From Mesoplasma melaleucae (GTDB lineage: Bacteria > Bacillota_I > Bacilli_A > Mycoplasmatales > Mycoplasmataceae): a DNA stretch of 64,000 nt. The notes beneath the pieces are model-generated. The model saw only the letters and a list, made by a program, of their open reading frames with translations, was not told where the DNA came from and searched no databases. Every line of letters begins with the position of its first letter. Position 1 is the stretch's first letter. The DNA is taken from positions 1 to 64,000 of the forward strand of contig NZ_CP024964.1 in the NCBI RefSeq assembly GCF_002804105.1, written 5' to 3'. The translations under genes and the position numbers were made by a program. Of this stretch, positions 2,730-48,359 are shown piece by piece.

Positions 2730-3693
2730 TTAAATATTTAATAGTTTCTTCGATATCTTAGTATACAAGTTTTTTGAAATAGTTACTGGAAAGTTAAAGA
2801 AGTATTCAAAGAAATCTTTTACATCACTAACTCCTGATAATTCACCATTTACATATAATCCATTTTTAACAACACCACTTCTTACTAAAGTAGAAGAGTT
2901 TTCTAAAACAGCTGTAATTAATGATTTGTAATTTGTAAAAGATTTAATAAAATTTTTTTAAATTCTTCACTATCACAAACAACACTTCTTCTTTCGTTTG
3001 TAATAATATTTTTTCCAACAATACTTAATTCTAATTCATCTATTAATTTAATAATAGTTCCTAATGATGATTTAATTTTTTCAATCATGTCACTATCAAC
3101 AGAAATTTAATGTTCTTCTCTCATATATTTATTTAAAGAATCATCTAAAAATTTTTTTGCATACATATTTTCTTTATCATTAACAATTTTACCTTCAACA
3201 ATTAATGTTAATGCAACTTTTGCATAATCTTGATTGATGTCTAAAATTAAAAAACCATGTTCATCATTAATTTCAGCATTAGCTCCTAGTGCTGAAAGAA
3301 TTACTCTTGGAGCAAAAGTTAAACAAAGCATATTTGTTTGTTCACTAAATAAAATTTGGAAGAATTCTTGAATAAAGTCATTGTCAGAGTTAGGACAAGC
3401 AATAACAATATTAGCGCCGTCAAATTCATCTTTGAATTTTTAACAAGAATATTTACATAGTGTTTAAAAATTTCTAAATCTTGAATAATAAATTTATCAA
3501 GAATATTAACAACTTTTAAAGAATCATCTAAACGACCGATTGTATTTTTACATCACGACAATACAGAAGAATTTCAGTTGTTAAAACGTTTCAACAAACT
3601 AAACTAAAATAGTCATATGTTTTTCCTTTTTCAGAATAAATTATTCTTGTAAATTCTTCACCAAAAACTATTCCTATTTTTTTTATTGTTCAT
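2730..3693 (-). pseudogene. Decayed actin/MreB-like protein gene
   Basis: A minus-strand reading can be followed from ATG at 3693 (GAAGAAG ribosome binding site upstream) to TAA at 2730, but only by crossing several frameshifts and at least one stop (TAA at about 3107). The restored protein of about 320 residues has an MreB-like plan: an N-terminal phosphate-loop-like segment (IGIVFGEEFTR), a middle segment (ANIVIACPNSDNDF) resembling the MreB stretch before phosphate 2, the segment ILDINQDYAKVAL like the phosphate-2 loop, and a C-terminal VKNGLYVNGELSGV resembling the MreB glycine-rich adenosine segment. No frame longer than 74 codons survives. The actin-fold assignment is by pattern only. 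It could be another member of the actin/Hsp70 superfamily. Confidence 0.5.
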
Positions 3694-3752
3694 AATCTTC
3701 TTCACATTAATTATAGTATATAATAATCTTAATGTTATATATAGGTGAATTA

Positions 3753-4280
3753 ATGGTAAATGAAATAATTATTGTTGAAGGTAAATCAGATTCACAAAAA
3801 TTGAAGAAAATATATGGTGAAAATTTAATTACAATTGAAACAAATGGTTTAGGATTTAATAATAAAAAACTTAATCTAATTAAAGAATTAAACAAAAAAA
3901 ATAAGATTATAATTTTTACAGATCCTGATGGACCAGGAAAGAAAATTCGCGAAAGTTTAATTGAGTATTTAGACACAGATATTTACAATGCTTTTATTTC
4001 AAAAACTGACATTGATAAAAACTCTAAAAAAATTGGAATAGCTGAAGCAAATGAAACAGCGATAAAAAATGCTTTAAATAATTTAATAACTTATAATAAA
4101 AATAATGAATCTATTTCTTGAAATGATTATGTTAATAATGATTTTTATTTAAAAGAAAATAGGAACAAAATAACAAGTTATTATAATTTGAGTGATGAGT
4201 TAAGTTCAAAGAGTTTATTTAAATGAATTAACTGAATGAATTTGAGTGTAACAGATATAGAAAAAATCATAGGAGAATAA
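3753..4280 (+). CDS. rnmV: Ribonuclease M5 (5S rRNA maturation)
   Basis: TOPRIM-domain endonuclease that trims 5S rRNA precursor. The 175-residue frame shows the TOPRIM N-terminus IIIVEGKSDSQKLK with the conserved Glu, and the DPDGPGKKIR motif with the metal-binding DxD. I chose ATG 3753 over ATG 3732, seven codons upstream, because AGGTGA at 3743-3748 is correctly spaced for 3753. UGA-Trp codons near the end (about 4119, 4221 and 4233) must be read through to reach TAA at 4280. One base separates it from ksgA, whose AGGAG ribosome binding site lies inside the rnmV end. This rnmV-ksgA pairing is common in Firmicutes and Mollicutes. Confidence 0.92.
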
Positions 4281-4281
4281 A

Positions 4282-5085
4282 ATGAAAGTTGAATCAAAGA
4301 AAAAGTTTGGTCAAAATTTTATTAGTGATCAAAATTTAATTAATAAAATAGTTTCAATTCTTGGTGACGACAAAGATCAATTAATTATTGAGATTGGTCC
4401 TGGAACAGGTGCTTTAACTAAATTGCTTGCACAAAAATATAAAAAAGTTGTAGCAATTGAAATTGATACAGACATGGAACCAATTTTAAAAAGAGAAATT
4501 CCTAATGATAATTTTGAATTATTTTTATCTGATGTATTATTAGTTGATTTTGAAAAATTAATTAAAGAAAAAAAACAACATGAAAATCAAAAAGTATCAA
4601 TTATTTCTAATATGCCATATTACATTACAAGCGAAATTTTATTTAGAACATTAAATGTAAGTGATCAATTAACAAAAGCTGTTTTTATGATGCAAAAAGA
4701 AGTTGCTATTAGAGTTTGTTCTTACAAAGGTGAAAACAACTATAATAACTTATCTGTTGCTTGTGAATTTTTTGCAGATAAAAAATATGAATTTACAGTA
4801 CCAAAACATATGTTTTATCCTGTGCCAAAAGTTGACTCAGCAATTATATCTTTAACTTTTAATAATAAATATACTAGTCAAATTAAAAACAAAGATAAGT
4901 TTTTAGTATTTTTAAGAAAAATTTTTAATAATCGAAGAAAAACAATATTAAACAACTTATCAAATGTAACAAATGATAAGATAAAAGCAAATGAAATACT
5001 TCAAAAAGTGTACATTGATAAATCATTGAGACCTGAAGTAATTGGGTTAGAAGATTTTATAAAAATATTTAATGAATTAGTTTAG
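4282..5085 (+). CDS. ksgA: 16S rRNA dimethyladenosine transferase RsmA/KsgA
   Basis: SAM-dependent enzyme that dimethylates two adjacent adenines near the 3' end of 16S rRNA during small-subunit assembly. The 267-residue frame shows the KsgA N-terminus KKKFGQNFI, SAM motif I IEIGPGTGALT (about residues 38-48), and the catalytic NMPYY motif (N-I/L/M-P-Y, about residue 110). The start uses AGGAG at 4271-4275, which overlaps the end of rnmV. Length is normal. Loss of this gene classically gives kasugamycin resistance, and here it looks intact. Confidence 0.96.
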   Translation: MKVESKKKFGQNFISDQNLINKIVSILGDDKDQLIIEIGPGTGALTKLLAQKYKKVVAIEIDTDMEPILKREIPNDNFELFLSDVLLVDFEKLIKEKKQHENQKVSIISNMPYYITSEILFRTLNVSDQLTKAVFMMQKEVAIRVCSYKGENNYNNLSVACEFFADKKYEFTVPKHMFYPVPKVDSAIISLTFNNKYTSQIKNKDKFLVFLRKIFNNRRKTILNNLSNVTNDKIKANEILQKVYIDKSLRPEVIGLEDFIKIFNELV

Positions 5086-40022: not shown

Positions 40023-40039
40023 TATAATATTGTATACAA
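40023..40039 (+). promoter_or_regulatory. Citrate operon -10 box with overlapping TTGTATACAA palindrome
   Basis: TATAAT at 40023-40028 is followed directly by the perfect 10-base palindrome TTGTATACAA at 40030-40039, which would cover the transcription start. Symmetric TGT...ACA sites are typical operators of GntR-family regulators. The operon encodes a GntR-type domain fused to CitX (44749-45891), so autoregulation is a reasonable inference. No strong -35 is visible. Confidence 0.5.
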
Positions 40040-40055: not shown

Positions 40056-42017
40056 ATGGAGTTTATGTTCACGCCTGAAGAAATGCAAAGGTTTCAGCTG
40101 AAAAAAGAAGCTGGTCAGGCTAAAATAGATAAAAGTAAAGTCAAATTAAATAAAATTCAAGAAAAAAATGAATTAATTATTGAAAAACATTTAGCTAAAG
40201 AAAATCTAAGACATACAAAAGAATTAGATAAACTAGAAACTAAAAGGAAAAAGAAACTTTCAACATTATCAACTAAAAATGTTTCAATTGAAATAACTGA
40301 TGAAATAGTTAAATTTTACGATTCTAAGATCGCTAAAGAAAATGAGTTGTATAAAATTGCTATTAAAAACTTAACTTTAGCAAAACAAGATTTACTAAAT
40401 GGTATTGAGTCTTCAAATGCAAACAATATTAAAGTTTATTTAGAGTCAATAAATGTAAAAATTAGTAAAGTTAATTGAAAAAGAAATTGAAAAAAATTAA
40501 AAGAAAAAGAGTTAACAAAAGATAAAAAAGAAGCAACTTATAAATTATATGAAGAGAGTGATAAAAAATATAAACCACTTCAAATTAAAGTTGATGAAAT
40601 GATTGAAAATTTTAAACTGCAATGAAGCACTTTTAAATTGAAAACTGAAGTTAAAATTAATAAAACTTCTCAATATACATGAAAGGATTGAATAAATGTA
40701 AAAATTTGAACAATCCCTGCATGATTAGCATTTACATTTTTAGCAATAATAATCACAGCCATATTAACTAAATCAGTTGAATCAAACATGATTTACGCAC
40801 CTGCTATATTATTAATTATTGCAGTTTTTGCTGGATCAATTTTTAGCAAAATACCAGTATGAAAAAAATATTTTGGTGGAGCAGTTATGGGTTCAATGTT
40901 TATTGCAGCATTCCTTGTTTACTTTAATGTTTTAGGGCCTGAAGCAAATGCAGCAGGACAAGAAGTTTATGCTTCAATTAAGGCTTGATTTAAAAACCAA
41001 GACTTCCTAAGTTTATATATTTCAGTATTACTTGTAGGAGCGGTTTTATTAATGCCTAGAAAATTAATTATTAAAGCAACTGGTGGATTCTTAGTTATTA
41101 TTGTTGCTGGATCATTATTAGGATTATTATTAGCTATGATGAGTACTTTAGTAACAGGAATGAGTATGCAAAATTTAATTTTAAATTATACTTTACCAAT
41201 TTTAGCAGATGGAAATGGTGGAGGTATCCAACCAATTGGAAAAATTGCTGAAGCTAACGGTTATGATTCAGGAGTTTGAATGTCTAGAGCATTAGCTATT
41301 TCAACTTTAGCGTCTATATTATCAGTTATTGCTGCTGCTATTGTAAGTGGTATTGGAAAATCAAAACCTTCTCTTTCAGGAAATGGAAAATTAATGTTAA
41401 CTGATATTCATACAGTTTATAGAACAGCTAAAGTAAACGATAGAAATATTGCTGCAGCTTTCTTATTAATTTTAGTTATTTACATTGCATCAGATATTTT
41501 AGCAAAAGCTGTATTTACTGAAGCTAGAGTAGGAATTTTAATTCCAAACTTTGCATGAATGATTATTTTATGTTTATTAGCTAACTTATTAGACGTAGTT
41601 CCATTGGAAATGAGATTGGGAGCAGAAAAAATTAATAAATTTATATCAAAACAAACAACATGATTATTAATGGTAGGGGTAGGTATTTTATTCATTGACT
41701 TAAAAGAATTTATATCAGCATTAAACCCAACTTCAATCTTAGTTTGTGTACTATTTGTATTAGGAGCAGTTGTTGGTCCAATGCTATTAGCAAAAGTATT
41801 AAAATTTAATTGTGTAGAAGCTGCTGTTTCAGCTGGATTGTGCATGACAGCTCAAGGTGGTAGTGGAGCTATTGCTGTTTTAGGAACATCAGAAAGAATG
41901 AATTTAATGCCATTTGGACAAATTACTTGTAGAATTGCTGGTAGTTTAATCTTAGTGTTTGCTGCCATTGCATTCTCAAAATGACCTGGACCAAACCCAG
42001 TAGCAGCATTAGTATAA
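40056..42017 (+). CDS. 2-hydroxycarboxylate (citrate/malate) transporter with an N-terminal coiled-coil extension
   Basis: The 653-residue frame has GGAGG at 40044-40048 and ATG 40056. Residues 1 to about 205 are hydrophilic and coiled-coil-like (many Lys/Glu/Leu repeats), an addition not present in the usual 440-residue 2HCT proteins. Residues from about 210 on form the carrier with about 11 helices. The two reentrant-loop signatures are recognisable: GNGGGIQPIG in the first half and AQGGSGAIAVLGTSERMNLMPF in the second (family form GG-G followed by N-R-M-x-L-M-P-F). Position before citD-citE-citF makes citrate the likely substrate, as in CitP/CitS. Citrate uptake may be by exchange or H+/Na+ symport; this cannot be read. 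Confidence 0.88.
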
Positions 42018-42041
42018 AATGAAAAGAAATAAGGAGAATAT

Positions 42042-42299
42042 ATGGAAAAAATTATAGTCGGAAGTGTTGAATCCGGGGATTTAATGATAACAATTGATAA
42101 AAATTCAACAGAGGAAAATAAAATAATTGTTAATTCTAAATTTTTAAACCAATTTGGTGATGAAATTAAGGGAATAGTAAACGAAGTTTTAATTGAAAAT
42201 AACGCAAAAGGGTGCATTTTAAATATTAATGATCAAGGAGCAATACCTGCAGTCATAAGAGCAAGAACAAAAACAGCATTAGAAAGATTTAAAAAATAA
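42042..42299 (+). CDS. citD: Citrate lyase acyl carrier protein (gamma subunit)
   Basis: The 85-residue frame starts at ATG 42042 with AAGGAG upstream. It carries the prosthetic-group site as ESGD, with Ser11 matching the Ser of the ESSD motif in other CitD proteins. That Ser receives the phosphoribosyl-dephospho-CoA arm made by CitG and attached by CitX. The C-terminal half ends with a helix (ARTKTALERFKK), as in the family. The gene is two bases from citE. Function is as part of the citrate lyase complex with CitE and CitF. Confidence 0.92.
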   Translation: MEKIIVGSVESGDLMITIDKNSTEENKIIVNSKFLNQFGDEIKGIVNEVLIENNAKGCILNINDQGAIPAVIRARTKTALERFKK

Positions 42300-42301
42300 T
42301 T

Positions 42302-43195
42302 ATGTCAAATACAAAAGTAAATAAATCTAGAAAACACATGTTGTTTGTTCCAGCTGACAAACCCGCAATGTACCGCGATGTTATATTTTACAAACCAGAC
42401 ACAGTAATGTTTGATCTAGAAGATGCTGTATCATATTCAGAAAAAGATGCAGCTCGAAACTTACTTGTTGAAATATTACAAGATATTGATTATTCTAAAA
42501 ATAAAATTGAAACTTGTGTAAGAATTAATGCTATTGATACAGAATTTTTTGAAAAAGACGTTGAAGCATGTGTAAAAGCAAACGTTGATCTAATTAGAAT
42601 ACCAAAAGCAGAAACAAAAGAAGACGTTTTAAAAACAATTGAAACTTTAAAAAAATATGAAACAGAAAATAAATTACCTTACGAAATCAAGATATTTTTA
42701 GCATTTGAAAGTGCTAAAGGTATATTGAATGCTTATGAAATTTCAGCATGTAGTGAAAGAATTGTTGGAATTGCATTAGGAGGAGTAGATTATTTATTAG
42801 ATTTAAAAGCAAGTAAGCTCCCAAATAGAGAAGAACTTATGTATGCAAGACAACACTTAGTACATGTTGGTAGAACATTAAAATTAGATGTTTTTGACGT
42901 TATCTATCCAAAAACTACAGATGCAGAAGGCTTTACTAAAGAATTTAAATTTATTAAAGCTCTAGGATTTAGTGGTAAATCAGTAGTTCACCCTAACCAA
43001 ATTGGTTTAATAAATGAAATTGTAAAACCAACACAACAAGAATTAGAATTTGCTATTGAAATGCAAAAAGCTTTTGATGAGTCAATTAAAAATGGTAAAG
43101 GTGTATTCTTATTTAAAGGACAAATGGTTGATAAGCCAGTTGTAGAGAAACAACTTGAAATTATCGAATTAGCTAGAGAGATGGGGATGTTATAA
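42302..43195 (+). CDS. citE: Citrate lyase beta subunit (citryl-ACP lyase)
   Basis: Cleaves citryl-ACP to oxaloacetate and acetyl-ACP. The 297-residue frame shows the HpcH/HpaI-family TIM barrel: RKHMLFVPADKPAM at the N-terminus, DLEDAV (metal-binding acidic residues), RIPKAET, and GIALGGVDYLLDL with the catalytic acidic region, and SVVHPNQIGLIN near the end. Length is that of CitE. Two bases after citD and one before citF, so the three are co-translated. Confidence 0.95.
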   Translation: MSNTKVNKSRKHMLFVPADKPAMYRDVIFYKPDTVMFDLEDAVSYSEKDAARNLLVEILQDIDYSKNKIETCVRINAIDTEFFEKDVEACVKANVDLIRIPKAETKEDVLKTIETLKKYETENKLPYEIKIFLAFESAKGILNAYEISACSERIVGIALGGVDYLLDLKASKLPNREELMYARQHLVHVGRTLKLDVFDVIYPKTTDAEGFTKEFKFIKALGFSGKSVVHPNQIGLINEIVKPTQQELEFAIEMQKAFDESIKNGKGVFLFKGQMVDKPVVEKQLEIIELAREMGML

Positions 43196-43196
43196 A

Positions 43197-44747
43197 ATGA
43201 GCAGACCAGAAATGACAAAAGAATATTTAGAAAGTATTAAAGGAAGTATTCCATATGAAATGAAGCCTTTTGATGTTAAAAATCCTAATACTTCTAATTT
43301 TTCTACAAATAAAACAACACTTCCTAACAAAGGAATAATAAGAGACAAAAGAGTTTCATTAAAAGAAGCAATTATTCAATCTGGACTAAAAAATGGAATG
43401 ACAATTTCTTTCCATCATCACTTTAGAAGTGGAGATAAAACCATTAAAACTGTTATGGAAATAGTTAAAGAATTAGGAATTAAAGATTTAACTATAGCAA
43501 GTAGTAGTTTAACAGATGCACATAACTTTTTAACAAATTTTATTAATGATGGGTATGTTAAAGCATTACAAACTTCAGGATGTAGAGATACTTTAGGAAA
43601 ATTTGTTTCTGAAGGACATTGTAAAACTCCGATGATCATCAGAAGCCACGGTGGTAGGGGAAGAGCTATAGAATCAGGTGACTTAAAAATTGATGTTGCA
43701 TTTATTGCAGCCAGTTCAAGTGACATGATGGGTAACTCAAATGGTAAAATCGGAAAATCAAGATGTGGAAGTTTAGGATATGGAATTGTTGATGCTGAAA
43801 ATGCTAATAAAACAGTTATTATTACTGACAACTTAGTTGATTATCCAAACAAAGTAATTTCAATTTCTCAAACACACGTTGATTTTGTTGTTGAAGTTGA
43901 AGAAATTGGAGATGCTAAAGGAATAATGACTAATGAAATTCGTCTTTCATCTAACCCAAAAGAAGAAATTATCGCTAAAAATGTAACAAATGTTATTACA
44001 AATACAGAATTGTTTAAAGATAAATTTTCAATACAAATGGGCACTGGTGGAGCATCACTCTCAGTAGTTAAATTACTTAAAAAAGAAATGATTGATAAAA
44101 ACATAAAAGCAAGTTTTTGTTTAGGTGGAATTACAGGACACCAAGTTTCATTATTAAATGAAGGTCTTGTAGAAGCATTATATGATACTCAATCATTTGA
44201 TATGATTGCTGGAGAATCAATTGCAACAAACCCAAATCACATTGAAATTTCAGCATCAATGTATGCAAACCCTCATAATAAATCTCCATTTGTTAATAAA
44301 TTAGACTATGTAATTTTAAGTGCGCTTGAAGTAGACACAAACTTTAATGTTAACGTAATTACAGGAAGCGATGGAGTTATTAGAGGAGCAGCTGGAGGAC
44401 ACCCTGATACTGCTGAAGGAGCAAAAATATCTATTATTTGTTTACCATTAATTAGAGGAAGATTAAGTTGTGTTGTTGAAAAAGTAAACACAATCATTAC
44501 ACCAGGTCATACAGTTGATGTTATTGTTACTGATTTAGGTATAGCTGTAAACCCTTTAAGAAAAGATATTCAAGATCAGTTAAAAGCTGCAGGTATTAAA
44601 ACAATTACATTAGAAGAAATGCAAAAATTTGCAGAAGATATTATTGGTAAAGCAAAACCTATTGAATGGGATTATTCAAAACCAGTAGCTCTAATTGAAG
44701 ACAGAGATGGTACAATATTAGATATAGTATACAAGGTAAAAAAATAG
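43197..44747 (+). CDS. citF: Citrate lyase alpha subunit (citrate CoA-transferase)
   Basis: Swaps acetyl-ACP for citrate to form citryl-ACP. The 516-residue frame has the CitF plan of two CoA-transferase-like halves, with GLKNGMTISFHHHFRSGD near residue 65, IRSHGGRGRAIESGDL, GTGGASLSVVKLLKKEM and a C-terminal ITPGHTVDVIVTDLG. It starts one base after the citE stop. Length matches other CitF proteins (about 510). No defect was seen. A UGG codon encodes the Trp in IEWDY. Confidence 0.95.
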   Translation: MSRPEMTKEYLESIKGSIPYEMKPFDVKNPNTSNFSTNKTTLPNKGIIRDKRVSLKEAIIQSGLKNGMTISFHHHFRSGDKTIKTVMEIVKELGIKDLTIASSSLTDAHNFLTNFINDGYVKALQTSGCRDTLGKFVSEGHCKTPMIIRSHGGRGRAIESGDLKIDVAFIAASSSDMMGNSNGKIGKSRCGSLGYGIVDAENANKTVIITDNLVDYPNKVISISQTHVDFVVEVEEIGDAKGIMTNEIRLSSNPKEEIIAKNVTNVITNTELFKDKFSIQMGTGGASLSVVKLLKKEMIDKNIKASFCLGGITGHQVSLLNEGLVEALYDTQSFDMIAGESIATNPNHIEISASMYANPHNKSPFVNKLDYVILSALEVDTNFNVNVITGSDGVIRGAAGGHPDTAEGAKISIICLPLIRGRLSCVVEKVNTIITPGHTVDVIVTDLGIAVNPLRKDIQDQLKAAGIKTITLEEMQKFAEDIIGKAKPIEWDYSKPVALIEDRDGTILDIVYKVKK

Positions 44748-44748
44748 A

Positions 44749-45891
44749 ATGAATTTACAAGAAATATTAGATGCCAGAGAAAAGAGAACGCTGTTTCTAA
44801 ACAATAAACTGGATGGTAACACTTTAGTAATTACCTTTTCTTTAAATATCCCAGGGCTAAACAAATTAGGAAATGACAAAAGAATTTTTATTGAAAAGTA
44901 TTTTTATGAATATTTAAAATACGTTAATAAGAGATCAAATCAAGTTAGTTATGATTTACTAACTGATGCAAATGGTTATATTTACTATCTATATTTAGAC
45001 ATTAAAAATATTAATCCGATTGACTTGAAAAAAGATGCTTTAAAATTTGAAGAATCTGTTGGCGATGCTGGAAAAATTATTGACATCGATATTTATCTTG
45101 CTTTAACAAAAAAAATATCAAGACAAGATATAGCTAAATTAGCTAGAAAATGTTTCTTGTGTGATAATTTTGCAAAAGAATGTGCGTTTTTACAAAAACA
45201 TAGTGAAGCAGACTTATTAAGTTTTGTTAATAAAACAATAAATTTAAAAACACCATTTATTTTATCTGAAGAATTTATTTTTGCAGATATTCTAAAAAGA
45301 ATTAGTGATGGAGAGTTATCTGAAGGAGATAGACTTAAAGAAGAAGAATTATCAGAAAGATATAATGTATCTAGAACTAAGATTCGTGAAGTTATTAAAA
45401 AGTTAAAAGAAGACGATTTAGTTACTTTAAAAAAGCACATTGGCGCAAAAATTAAAGTGCTTAATAATACAGAAATAAAAGAAATATTAGAATTAAGAAT
45501 TTTATTAAAAAGAATAATTTTCAAAAACGTATTTAATAATTATTTAAAACAAAATTACTTTATGATTGATGATGTAAAAAACAGAATTTTAAAAATTAAA
45601 GAAAATGATTATGAATTAAAAGCTATTTGAAATATAGAGATTCATACTTTTCTATTTTCTTTATCAACAAAATATTATACAAAAAGTTACTATAACAAAT
45701 TAGAAACTACATTTGCTTGTATAAATAGAAAAATAAAGGAAAAAATTTTAAAAGGAGAATTTGATCTGTTGAAAAATTTTTTAATTATGTGTGATTCTAT
45801 TATTAAAAGAGATGAAAAAACATTTTTTAGCAATATTGAAGATTATTTTAATAAAATAGAAAGTTTAATTTTGAGTTTTAAAAATGAGTAA
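44749..45891 (+). CDS. CitX holo-ACP synthase domain fused to a GntR-family regulator
   Basis: The 380-residue frame joins two functions. Residues 1-165 are CitX: DAREKRTLFLNN, VITFSLNIPGLNK and the characteristic RKCFLCDNFAKECA (about 140-153), the apo-citrate-lyase phosphoribosyl-dephospho-CoA transferase that loads CitD. Residues about 180-245 are a winged helix of GntR type: FADILKRISDGELSEGDRL, ELSERYNVSRTKIREVIKKL and a wing. Residues 245-375 are helical, with ELRILLKR at the start, as in FadR/FCD regulators. The gene starts one base after citF and overlaps citC by eight bases. It may load the lyase and also sense citrate to control the operon. Fusion is seen in sequence; the regulatory role is inference. 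Confidence 0.85.
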
Positions 45892-46936
45892 TATAGTTTT
45901 TGAAAAAGTTAATTTAGAAAATCAAAATATAGAAAATAAAGTAAAAATATTTTTGAACAAATTTGATTTAAAGTATTCAAATATAGATTGCACAATCATT
46001 GCTTGAGAAGCAAACGAAATTATTGGCGTTTGTAGTAAAAATAAAAATATTATTAAAAATATTGCTGTAGATGATTCACAAAAAGGATTAGGACTCTTTA
46101 ATCAATTACTATCTGAAATTAAAAAACAGATAATTATAGAAAATTATAATAACACTTTTGTAATAACAAAAAAATGTAATAAAAAGTTTTTTGAAGATAT
46201 TAATTTTAAAAAAATATATGAAAATGACAAAATAGCGTTTTTAGCTGAAAATATAGATGAATATAATAATTACAAAAAATTTGTTAATAATAGTAAATTT
46301 TGCAAAAAAACCGGAGTTATATTATTAAATGCAAACCCATTAACTAAAGGGCATCAATTCTTAATTGAAGAATCAAGAAAAGAAAATGATTTAACAGTAC
46401 TTATTCCAGTTATAGATGATTCATCATTTTTTACTACAAAAGAACGTTTAGAAATATTATCAGCAAATTATCAAAATAGTAAAGATATTAAGATCTTTGA
46501 AGGAACACAGTTTTTAATTTCTAAAAAATTATTTCCTAGCTATTTTATAAAATCTGATGAAGATGTAATAACTGAAGAAAGCGAAATGAATGCTTGATTA
46601 TTTAAAGACATATTTTCTGAACAAGTAAAAAGTGGTAATACAATAACTAGATATTTAGGTAGTGAACCATTTTCAAAAACAACTAACAAATATAATGAAT
46701 TTATTCAGCATTTATATGAAAAAGATGCATTAAAAATCAAAGTTAAAATTGTTGAAAGATATACTAATAAAAATAATGATATTATTAGTGCTTCAAAAGT
46801 AAGAAAATTAATTTATGATGAGCAAATTGATAAATTAAAAGATTTTGTTTCTGATGAAACATTTAAATTAATTACAAAAGATGAAATTATTGAAAGAGCA
46901 CAAGCTAAACCTGAATTAATTTTTAAGAATAATTAA
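45884..46936 (+). CDS. citC: [Citrate lyase] ligase (citrate lyase acetyl-activating enzyme)
   Basis: Acetylates the thiol of the CitD prosthetic group with ATP and acetate. The 350-residue frame starts at ATG 45884 inside the end of the CitX-GntR gene. The N-terminal 130 residues are GNAT-like (IAVDDSQKGLGLFNQLL). The C-terminal nucleotidyltransferase part has the NPLTKGHQFLIE form of the HxGH motif (about residue 150) and a late ISASKVRKL corresponding to the family's S-[AG]-S-x-V-R. Length matches CitC. Its 3' end overlaps the opposite-strand citG by 14 bases. No own ribosome binding site is obvious, as expected with coupling. Confidence 0.88.
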
Positions 46937-47702
46937 TTAGTTTTAAAAACATTACTAAAACAAACAAGTCAGCTGCACCACCAGGTGACACACGCTCTTT
47001 TATAAAATGGTTATTGATTTCTTCAATTTCCTTAAAAGACAATTCATTCTTTTCAATTTTGATAGCTAAAGAATTTAGATCAGCTTTAATATTATTATAA
47101 GATTGAATCCCAATTTTAAGTATCATAGTTGTATCATCAATATTGACAGTAAGAAAAATTAATAAAAGAAAATATTTTAAATTTTCTTCCAAATTTAAAT
47201 GTTGAATTGATTGATAATAATTTAATGCTTTAAAAACAACAGGATAGCCAGAAATGGCTATTTGTGTTGGATGTGCTAAATTGTACTCTTTGCACAAATC
47301 CATAGATTTTGATTTAATTGGAATTGATTTTAAAGGTTTACAAAAATTAATTATATTTTTTTGTAGAGTACCAGCATTAATTTGTGTGTATAAAAAACAA
47401 TAAAAGAAAATTGAACTATGAAAAATTAGACCTTTATGGGTGTTGACACCATTAGTCTCTTCAAACATCTTATTTTCAAAATTAAAGCCAATTTGTTTTA
47501 AATCATAAAAATCTTTAATTTGATTAAAATCCTTATAAATAGTTTTTAAAAAAGGCTTAAAAATTTTTAAAGAATTTTGAAAAGTTTTATAATCCATGTC
47601 AAAATGACAGCCTGAATTTTGTTTTGAAACTAATCCTAAAGAAGGATAAAAACTAAATTCAATTTCAATAGCTTTTAAAAAATCGTTAATAACTTTATTC
47701 AT
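46923..47702 (-). CDS. citG: 2-(5''-triphosphoribosyl)-3'-dephospho-CoA synthase CitG
   Basis: Makes the precursor of the citrate lyase prosthetic group from ATP and dephospho-CoA. From ATG 47702 the frame is about 259 residues. Family marks are the N-terminal SLGLVSKQNSGCHFDMDYKTF (partial: GLVS, GxHxDMD), NGVNTHKGLIF with the conserved NTHKG, and SPGGAADL near the C-terminus. The minus-strand orientation, convergent with citC, is unusual because citG normally lies co-directionally with the other cit genes. No good ribosome binding site precedes ATG 47702 or the alternative ATG 47717, so the start is uncertain. Confidence 0.88.
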   Translation of the reverse strand: MNKVINDFLKAIEIEFSFYPSLGLVSKQNSGCHFDMDYKTFQNSLKIFKPFLKTIYKDFNQIKDFYDLKQIGFNFENKMFEETNGVNTHKGLIFHSSIFFYCFLYTQINAGTLQKNIINFCKPLKSIPIKSKSMDLCKEYNLAHPTQIAISGYPVVFKALNYYQSIQHLNLEENLKYFLLLIFLTVNIDDTTMILKIGIQSYNNIKADLNSLAIKIEKNELSFKEIEEINNHFIKERVSPGGAADLFVLVMFLKLINYS

Positions 47703-47732
47703 ATTTTCATTGTACATTAGAAAGGTATAAAA

Positions 47733-48359
47733 ATGACAACAACAAAAAAGCATTTAGAAGAATTAAAAAAAGAAAAATTATCAGCCATAATCAGAACAGA
47801 TGATTATGATCATGCATATAAAATTATCAAAGCATGTAACGAAGCAGCCATCAAGTTTATTGAAATAACATTAACAGTTCCTAATGCTTACAAATTAATT
47901 GAACAAACATCAAAAGACTTTCCTAATTTATCAATTGGAGCAGGAACAGTTTTAACTATTGAACAAGCGCAAAAATCATTAGAAGCTGGAGCTAAATATT
48001 TTGTTTCTCCTGTTTGTTTACCTGAATTGGTTAAATGATCAAAAGAAAAAGGTATTTTATGCATGGCTGGTGCAATTACACCAACAGAAATGTTTACATT
48101 ATGAGAAGCAGGAGCAGAATTAATTAAATTTTTCCCCGCAAATTCAATGCCAAAAGATTATATTAAATTAGTTAAAAACCCACACACAGAATTCCAATTT
48201 ATTGCAACAGGTGGAATTAACTATAATAACTGTTTAGATTATATTGAAGCAGGATGTATTGCTGTTGGAGTAAGCGCTGATTTAGGATCTGCACCTATTA
48301 CAAAAACTTATGAAGAAATTTTAGAAGTTGCTAAAAAATATAAAGCTAAATTAAAATAA
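47733..48359 (+). CDS. eda: KDPG/KHG aldolase-family protein, possible oxaloacetate decarboxylase
   Basis: The 208-residue frame starts at ATG 47733 behind GAAAGG and shows the class I aldolase signature: KFIEITLTVPNA (catalytic Glu), SIGAGTVL, YFVSPVC and LIKFFPANSMPKD with the Schiff-base Lys. KDPG aldolase normally splits 2-keto-3-deoxy-6-phosphogluconate in the Entner-Doudoroff pathway, which is not evident in this window. E. coli Eda is known to decarboxylate oxaloacetate too. Next to citrate lyase, and with no oxaloacetate decarboxylase (oadABG or mae-type) seen nearby, that role is a reasonable inference. One UGA-Trp at about 48037. Divergent from citG. Confidence 0.85.

Follow-up and report, generated by a model that had tools for sequence, protein, structure and literature searches.

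The cit operon of Mesoplasma melaleucae raises the question of whether a single gene can encode both the enzyme that matures citrate lyase and the regulator that controls the lyase genes. For the window analysed here, a 64,000-nucleotide stretch covering positions 1 to 64,000 of contig NZ_CP024964.1, a sequence-only reading had proposed that one open reading frame joins CitX, the prosthetic-group transferase of citrate lyase, to a GntR/FCD-type transcription factor. Both the proposed fusion and the domain limits given for it (Table 1) were borne out by Pfam matches to CitX and GntR, by fold matches and by orthologues that are fused in the same way elsewhere. Maturation of citrate lyase and control of its genes probably fall to one protein. 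In the arrangement that we consider likely, the N-terminal CitX domain would attach the prosthetic group to CitD, and the C-terminal CitO-like GntR/FCD part would dimerise and bind the palindrome TTGTATACAA on the cit promoter, so that the operon, including the fusion gene itself, would be autoregulated, most likely through repression; the gene would have been born from the joining of adjacent citX and gntR genes.

Table 1. Features of the cit region of M. melaleucae (positions in the window; domain rows give residues of the fusion protein)
Feature	Position	Strand	Remarks
Predicted operator TTGTATACAA	40030-40039		between -10-like TATAAT (40023-40028) and Shine-Dalgarno (AGGAGG from 40044)
citS	40056-42017	+	2HCT citrate transporter, first gene of the operon; 215-aa lysine-rich N-terminal extension
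citD	42042-42299	+	citrate lyase acyl carrier, CitX substrate
citE	42302-43195	+	citrate lyase beta subunit
citF	43197-44747	+	citrate lyase alpha subunit
citX-gntR fusion gene	44749-45891	+	380 aa, table 4, W294 = TGA
CitX domain, residues 1-165	44749-45243	+	Pfam, fold, kept residues
GntR winged helix, residues ~174-235	45268-45453	+	Pfam, model, fold match
FCD-fold helical effector/dimerisation domain, residues ~240-380	45466-45888	+	orthologue Pfam, model, fold match; metal-site residues mostly replaced
citC	45884-46936	+	citrate lyase ligase; overlaps 3' end of fusion gene
citG	46923-47753	-	triphosphoribosyl-dephospho-CoA synthase, maker of CitX substrate
eda	47733-48359	+	KDPG/KHG aldolase homologue, candidate oxaloacetate decarboxylase

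The reading frame and its two halves

The source genome is a single contig of 845,295 bp (99.5% complete) from a mollicute, in which TGA encodes tryptophan. The fusion frame contains a single TGA, read as tryptophan under genetic code 4; translation with table 11 would instead stop after 293 amino acids, within the FCD domain and away from the domain junction. Such a stop at residue 294 could mislead, and the sequence-only reading had itself allowed for an assembly error joining two genes, with a stop or boundary near residue 170. The table-11 stop lies far from that junction, however, and full-length open orthologues with 31-44% identity are present in six other genomes, so that the same junction recurs in seven genomes of three genera. 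Because these orthologous fusions are independent, an assembly error is ruled out, and a merging of two genes by any assembly or frameshift artefact is extremely improbable.

The combination for which a domain-architecture search had been suggested is present in one frame with both families above their curated cut-offs: Pfam CitX (PF03802) matches residues 2-164 (E 6e-30, 104.6 bits against a cut-off of 25) and Pfam GntR (PF00392) matches residues 175-234 (E 5e-15, 55.5 bits against a cut-off of 27). The NCBIfam model TIGR03124 scores the fusion at 91.1, under its stricter cut-off of 105.25. The fusion retains all 20 near-invariant CitX positions (85% conservation or more across an alignment of 31 CitX domains), including K39, D112, D114, R125, R133, C135, C138, C145 and H151. 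In an AlphaFold2 model of the fusion with seven orthologues as input (mean pLDDT 86.8, pTM 0.84), residues 1-169 match 7dcm, a crystal structure of CitX (Z 19.3, 165 residues aligned at 2.2 A). The domain is the only CitX copy in the source genome, and from its sequence we infer that it is enzymatically active. Other CitX domains in the class sample lie mostly in frames of ~425 aa that fit CitX-CitG, or are standalone.

Pfam FCD gave no match in the M. melaleucae fusion protein itself; it is found above cut-off in relatives, namely the Mesoplasma lactucae fusion (E 1.5e-9) and the unfused GntR protein of genome G015 (E 5e-10). Residues 174-380 of the model match the FCD regulator TM0439 (3sxy; Z 18.8, 2.5 A over 200 residues). 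The metal ligands of FCD domains, which we take to be D..FH, H and H (the D..FH, EH and HL motifs), align in the M. melaleucae fusion with N295, H299, F and Y at the positions of D, H, H and H. In CitO-like proteins, in G015 and in the M. lactucae fusion, FN replaces FH and the two later histidines are kept; the remaining fusions keep at most one of these two. As metal-site residues are mostly lost, metal-mediated ligand sensing is unlikely in most fusions. Loss of the ligands lowers metal-dependent sensing and leaves the FCD fold assignment unaffected.

Distribution and origin of the fusion

Seven genomes from three genera carry the fusion at full length, M. lactucae among them; they represent a few small insect-associated bacteria. 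Orthologues in G029, G030, G031, G032 and G036 are 41-44% identical, and that of M. lactucae (G001) 31-32%. No further fusions were found outside these seven genomes among 395 genomes of the class and 392 of the phylum (overlapping samples), none matched in plasmids at E 1e-8, and none matched in six sampled congeners; a search of genome contigs returned M. lactucae (NZ_CP023668.1) plus GntR proteins from other groups. The sequence-only reading had known of no described precedent, and literature searches likewise gave no CitX-GntR fusion.

Genome G015 carries citX and gntR as adjoining separate genes that overlap by 17 nucleotides in different frames, such that one frameshift would nearly fuse them, and this arrangement is likely the ancestral state of the fusion. 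G005 has CitX alone, and G002 has kept CitX, followed by a C-terminal tail with neither an HTH nor any Pfam match. In the GntR tree, the fusion GntR parts and the G015 protein form one clade (96/95), within which the fusions form one clade (98/91); the fusion domain is not placed with CitO, a grouping that the data do not reject (p-AU 0.227). A frame in G635 (L116:6013-7578) links citC and citX across 521 codons when TGA is read through (table 4). Under table 11 it resolves into two adjacent genes, with the CitX frame starting from about 7090, and it is probably not a fusion.

The CitF and CitE trees place the cluster at 40056-48359 with a different genus (in the CitF tree M. melaleucae falls within the g8 group, 100/98), and the MetRS tree places the organism with its own genus. 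Because the CitF and MetRS placements conflict and no match was found in the sampled congeners, the whole cit cluster was probably acquired by horizontal transfer with the fusion already formed.

The predicted operator and the neighbouring genes

The gene order is citS-citD-citE-citF-[citX-gntR]-citC, followed by citG on the opposite strand and then by the eda homologue. The putative operator that the sequence-only reading had placed upstream of citS held up, as it is an exact palindrome whose presence at cit promoters matches the presence of the GntR part across genomes. The perfect copy of TTGTATACAA lies 16 bp ahead of the citS start codon and is one of two in the whole 845-kb genome, although the M. 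melaleucae operator is imperfect beyond the 10-bp core. In a genome sample that is small and partly interrelated, 8/8 genomes with a GntR part have perfect TTGTATACAA at the promoter that precedes their first cit gene, as against 0/2 without one, the cit clusters of G002 and G005 having no copy. Six genomes (G029, G030, G031, G032, G036 and G015) have two perfect copies ahead of their first cit gene; M. melaleucae and G001 have a single copy at the cit promoter. Of 35 perfect sites across the eight genomes, 14 fall in the 150-211 bp that precede the first cit gene, against an expectation of ~0.005 for evenly spread sites; the reversed-pattern control gave 0 in these stretches. Genome-wide, TTGTATACAA has 2-7 copies in these genomes and is not commoner than the reversed control, and in G036 both of its two copies are at citS. 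Tandem copies are spaced by 13 to 31 bp with the 10-mer unchanged, and with variable spacing around an exact 10-mer, selection on operator sites is the natural reading.

With regard to promoter elements, for which the -10 assignments are simple consensus matches within AT-rich DNA, the operator in other genomes overlaps either the -35 element or the spacer of the promoter that best fits the consensus. In spiroplasma-type genomes the proximal site is placed around -25 to -33 relative to the presumed start, a location also compatible with activation. The same TGTATACA core was found upstream of CitO-like genes beside cit clusters in four other Bacilli, three of which are close relatives, so this evidence is weaker than it appears.

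Additional sites were observed away from the cit promoter. In G029, a perfect TTGTATACAA at L108:3301-3310, far from the cit cluster, precedes a malic enzyme gene (3351-4496) by ~40 bp, and judging from this site the gene is a plausible extra regulon member; the malic enzyme gene of G036 has no perfect TTGTATACAA site. As the G029 cit cluster also contains eda (275455-276072), the operator-bearing malic enzyme is an addition and not a replacement. G015 has a second GntR gene (L107:3056-3745), next to an eda homologue and sugar genes, with TTGTATACAA on both sides (3004-3013 and 3948-3957), and this gene may encode a paralogous regulator sharing the cit operator.

KHG aldolases decarboxylate oxaloacetate, which makes eda a candidate for the oxaloacetate-decarboxylating step of the citrate pathway. 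An eda homologue accompanied 10/10 cit clusters checked, and no close match was found in 4/5 cit-negative relatives; a TAA interrupts the frame of the G015 copy. Mollicutes of this type have been reported to be without the means to process oxaloacetate further (PMC9666726, PMC12239587). At the other end of the operon, the CitS extension (residues 1-215, 40056-40700) recurs in most other mollicute CitS proteins, where its length varies and reaches ~580 aa in G002, and G001 has a separate upstream 462-aa ORF in its place.

Mode of regulation and comparison with known systems

Between G036 and G031, dN/dS is 0.09 for CitX, 0.15 for the linker and HTH and 0.11 for FCD, rough values given that synonymous changes are near saturation, and at the sequence level purifying selection acts on both halves of the fusion. 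These low ratios throughout, together with operators conserved wherever the HTH is present and a CitX half that is the sole copy of its genome with all family residues kept, make it very unlikely that either half is a decaying passenger without function, even though the missing HTH of G002 illustrates that loss does occur. The position of the operator, especially in M. melaleucae, where a protein bound between TATAAT and the Shine-Dalgarno sequence would block RNA polymerase, suggests an autorepressor and not a CitO-type activator. In Enterococcus faecalis, the GntR protein CitO activates the cit operons in a citrate-dependent manner and has operators O1 and O2 (PMC3198936); the sequence-only reading had cited both CitO and CitI as GntR activators, which is correct for CitO, but CitI belongs to SorC/DeoR. 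Activation by citrate bound in the FCD pocket, with the joining to CitX a mere convenience of co-expression, would account for the FN motif and TGTATACA core shared with CitO-like genes and for the paired operators at the promoters of most species, which recall O1 and O2. We nevertheless consider this unlikely, as the M. melaleucae operator occupies a repressor position, the operator overlaps the -35 or spacer in other genomes, and most fusions have lost their metal-site residues.

What points to a possible coupling of cofactor loading to operon control is the physical linkage of the two halves and the matching predicted operator. For an autorepressor, the signal could be citrate or a related compound lodged in the FCD pocket, probably without metal mediation, a reading to which we give somewhat less than an even chance; that there is no dedicated signal, or another input, is distinctly unlikely. 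Cofactor-loading enzymes physically combined with the regulator of the operon that encodes them are rare, and BirA is the textbook case. By analogy, apo-CitD or the triphosphoribosyl-dephospho-CoA precursor on the CitX domain might control DNA binding, in which case the operon would be silent once every CitD carries its prosthetic group and active when apo-CitD accumulates. The logic would be the same, with a transferase of a prosthetic group to a carrier protein joined to an operon-repressing winged helix, and in BirA an excess of acceptor protein derepresses the operon (PMC4016012). The FCD metal-site residues are largely replaced and the CitX residues all kept, so the input may have shifted to CitX, but CitO-like proteins are already without D..FH, which means that some of these residues were lost before the fusion arose. 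Furthermore, communication between the domains is here an analogy, and BirA represses cofactor-supply genes, whereas the cit operon holds the carrier and the lyase. We therefore regard such a switch as tentative and rather doubtful. If true, it would be an independent invention of the BirA logic, in which the CitD loader would report its own workload and the level of apo-CitD would set operon output.

In total, known parts meet in a new combination in this conserved domain fusion, and its operator is well supported as a prediction. For mollicutes, whose regulators are few, it would supply a specific citrate-operon switch with a defined candidate regulon. Unfused neighbours, fused forms and genomes in which the regulator was lost together with the operator provide a natural series, and the small system with its clear predicted operator makes coupling of protein maturation to transcription accessible.

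The fusion shares with known CitX the full domain, the 7dcm fold, all near-invariant residues and the cit operon setting, and differs in its C-terminal GntR/FCD regulator. With TM0439 and FCD regulators it shares the fold of residues 174-380, at 18% identity and with metal ligands that are not conserved. In common with CitO are the GntR/FCD class, the presumed cit operon target and the location of the gene in a cit cluster, and the TGTATACA core is a feature shared between the upstream regions of CitO-like genes in other Bacilli and the cit operator of the fusion; unlike CitO, the fusion is joined to CitX, has mostly lost the metal-site residues and has an operator position that fits repression. 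Like BirA, it joins a loader of a carrier protein's prosthetic group to a winged-helix operon regulator, but it is built from unrelated enzyme and regulator families in the reverse domain order, and any coupling between its halves is suggested by analogy with BirA.
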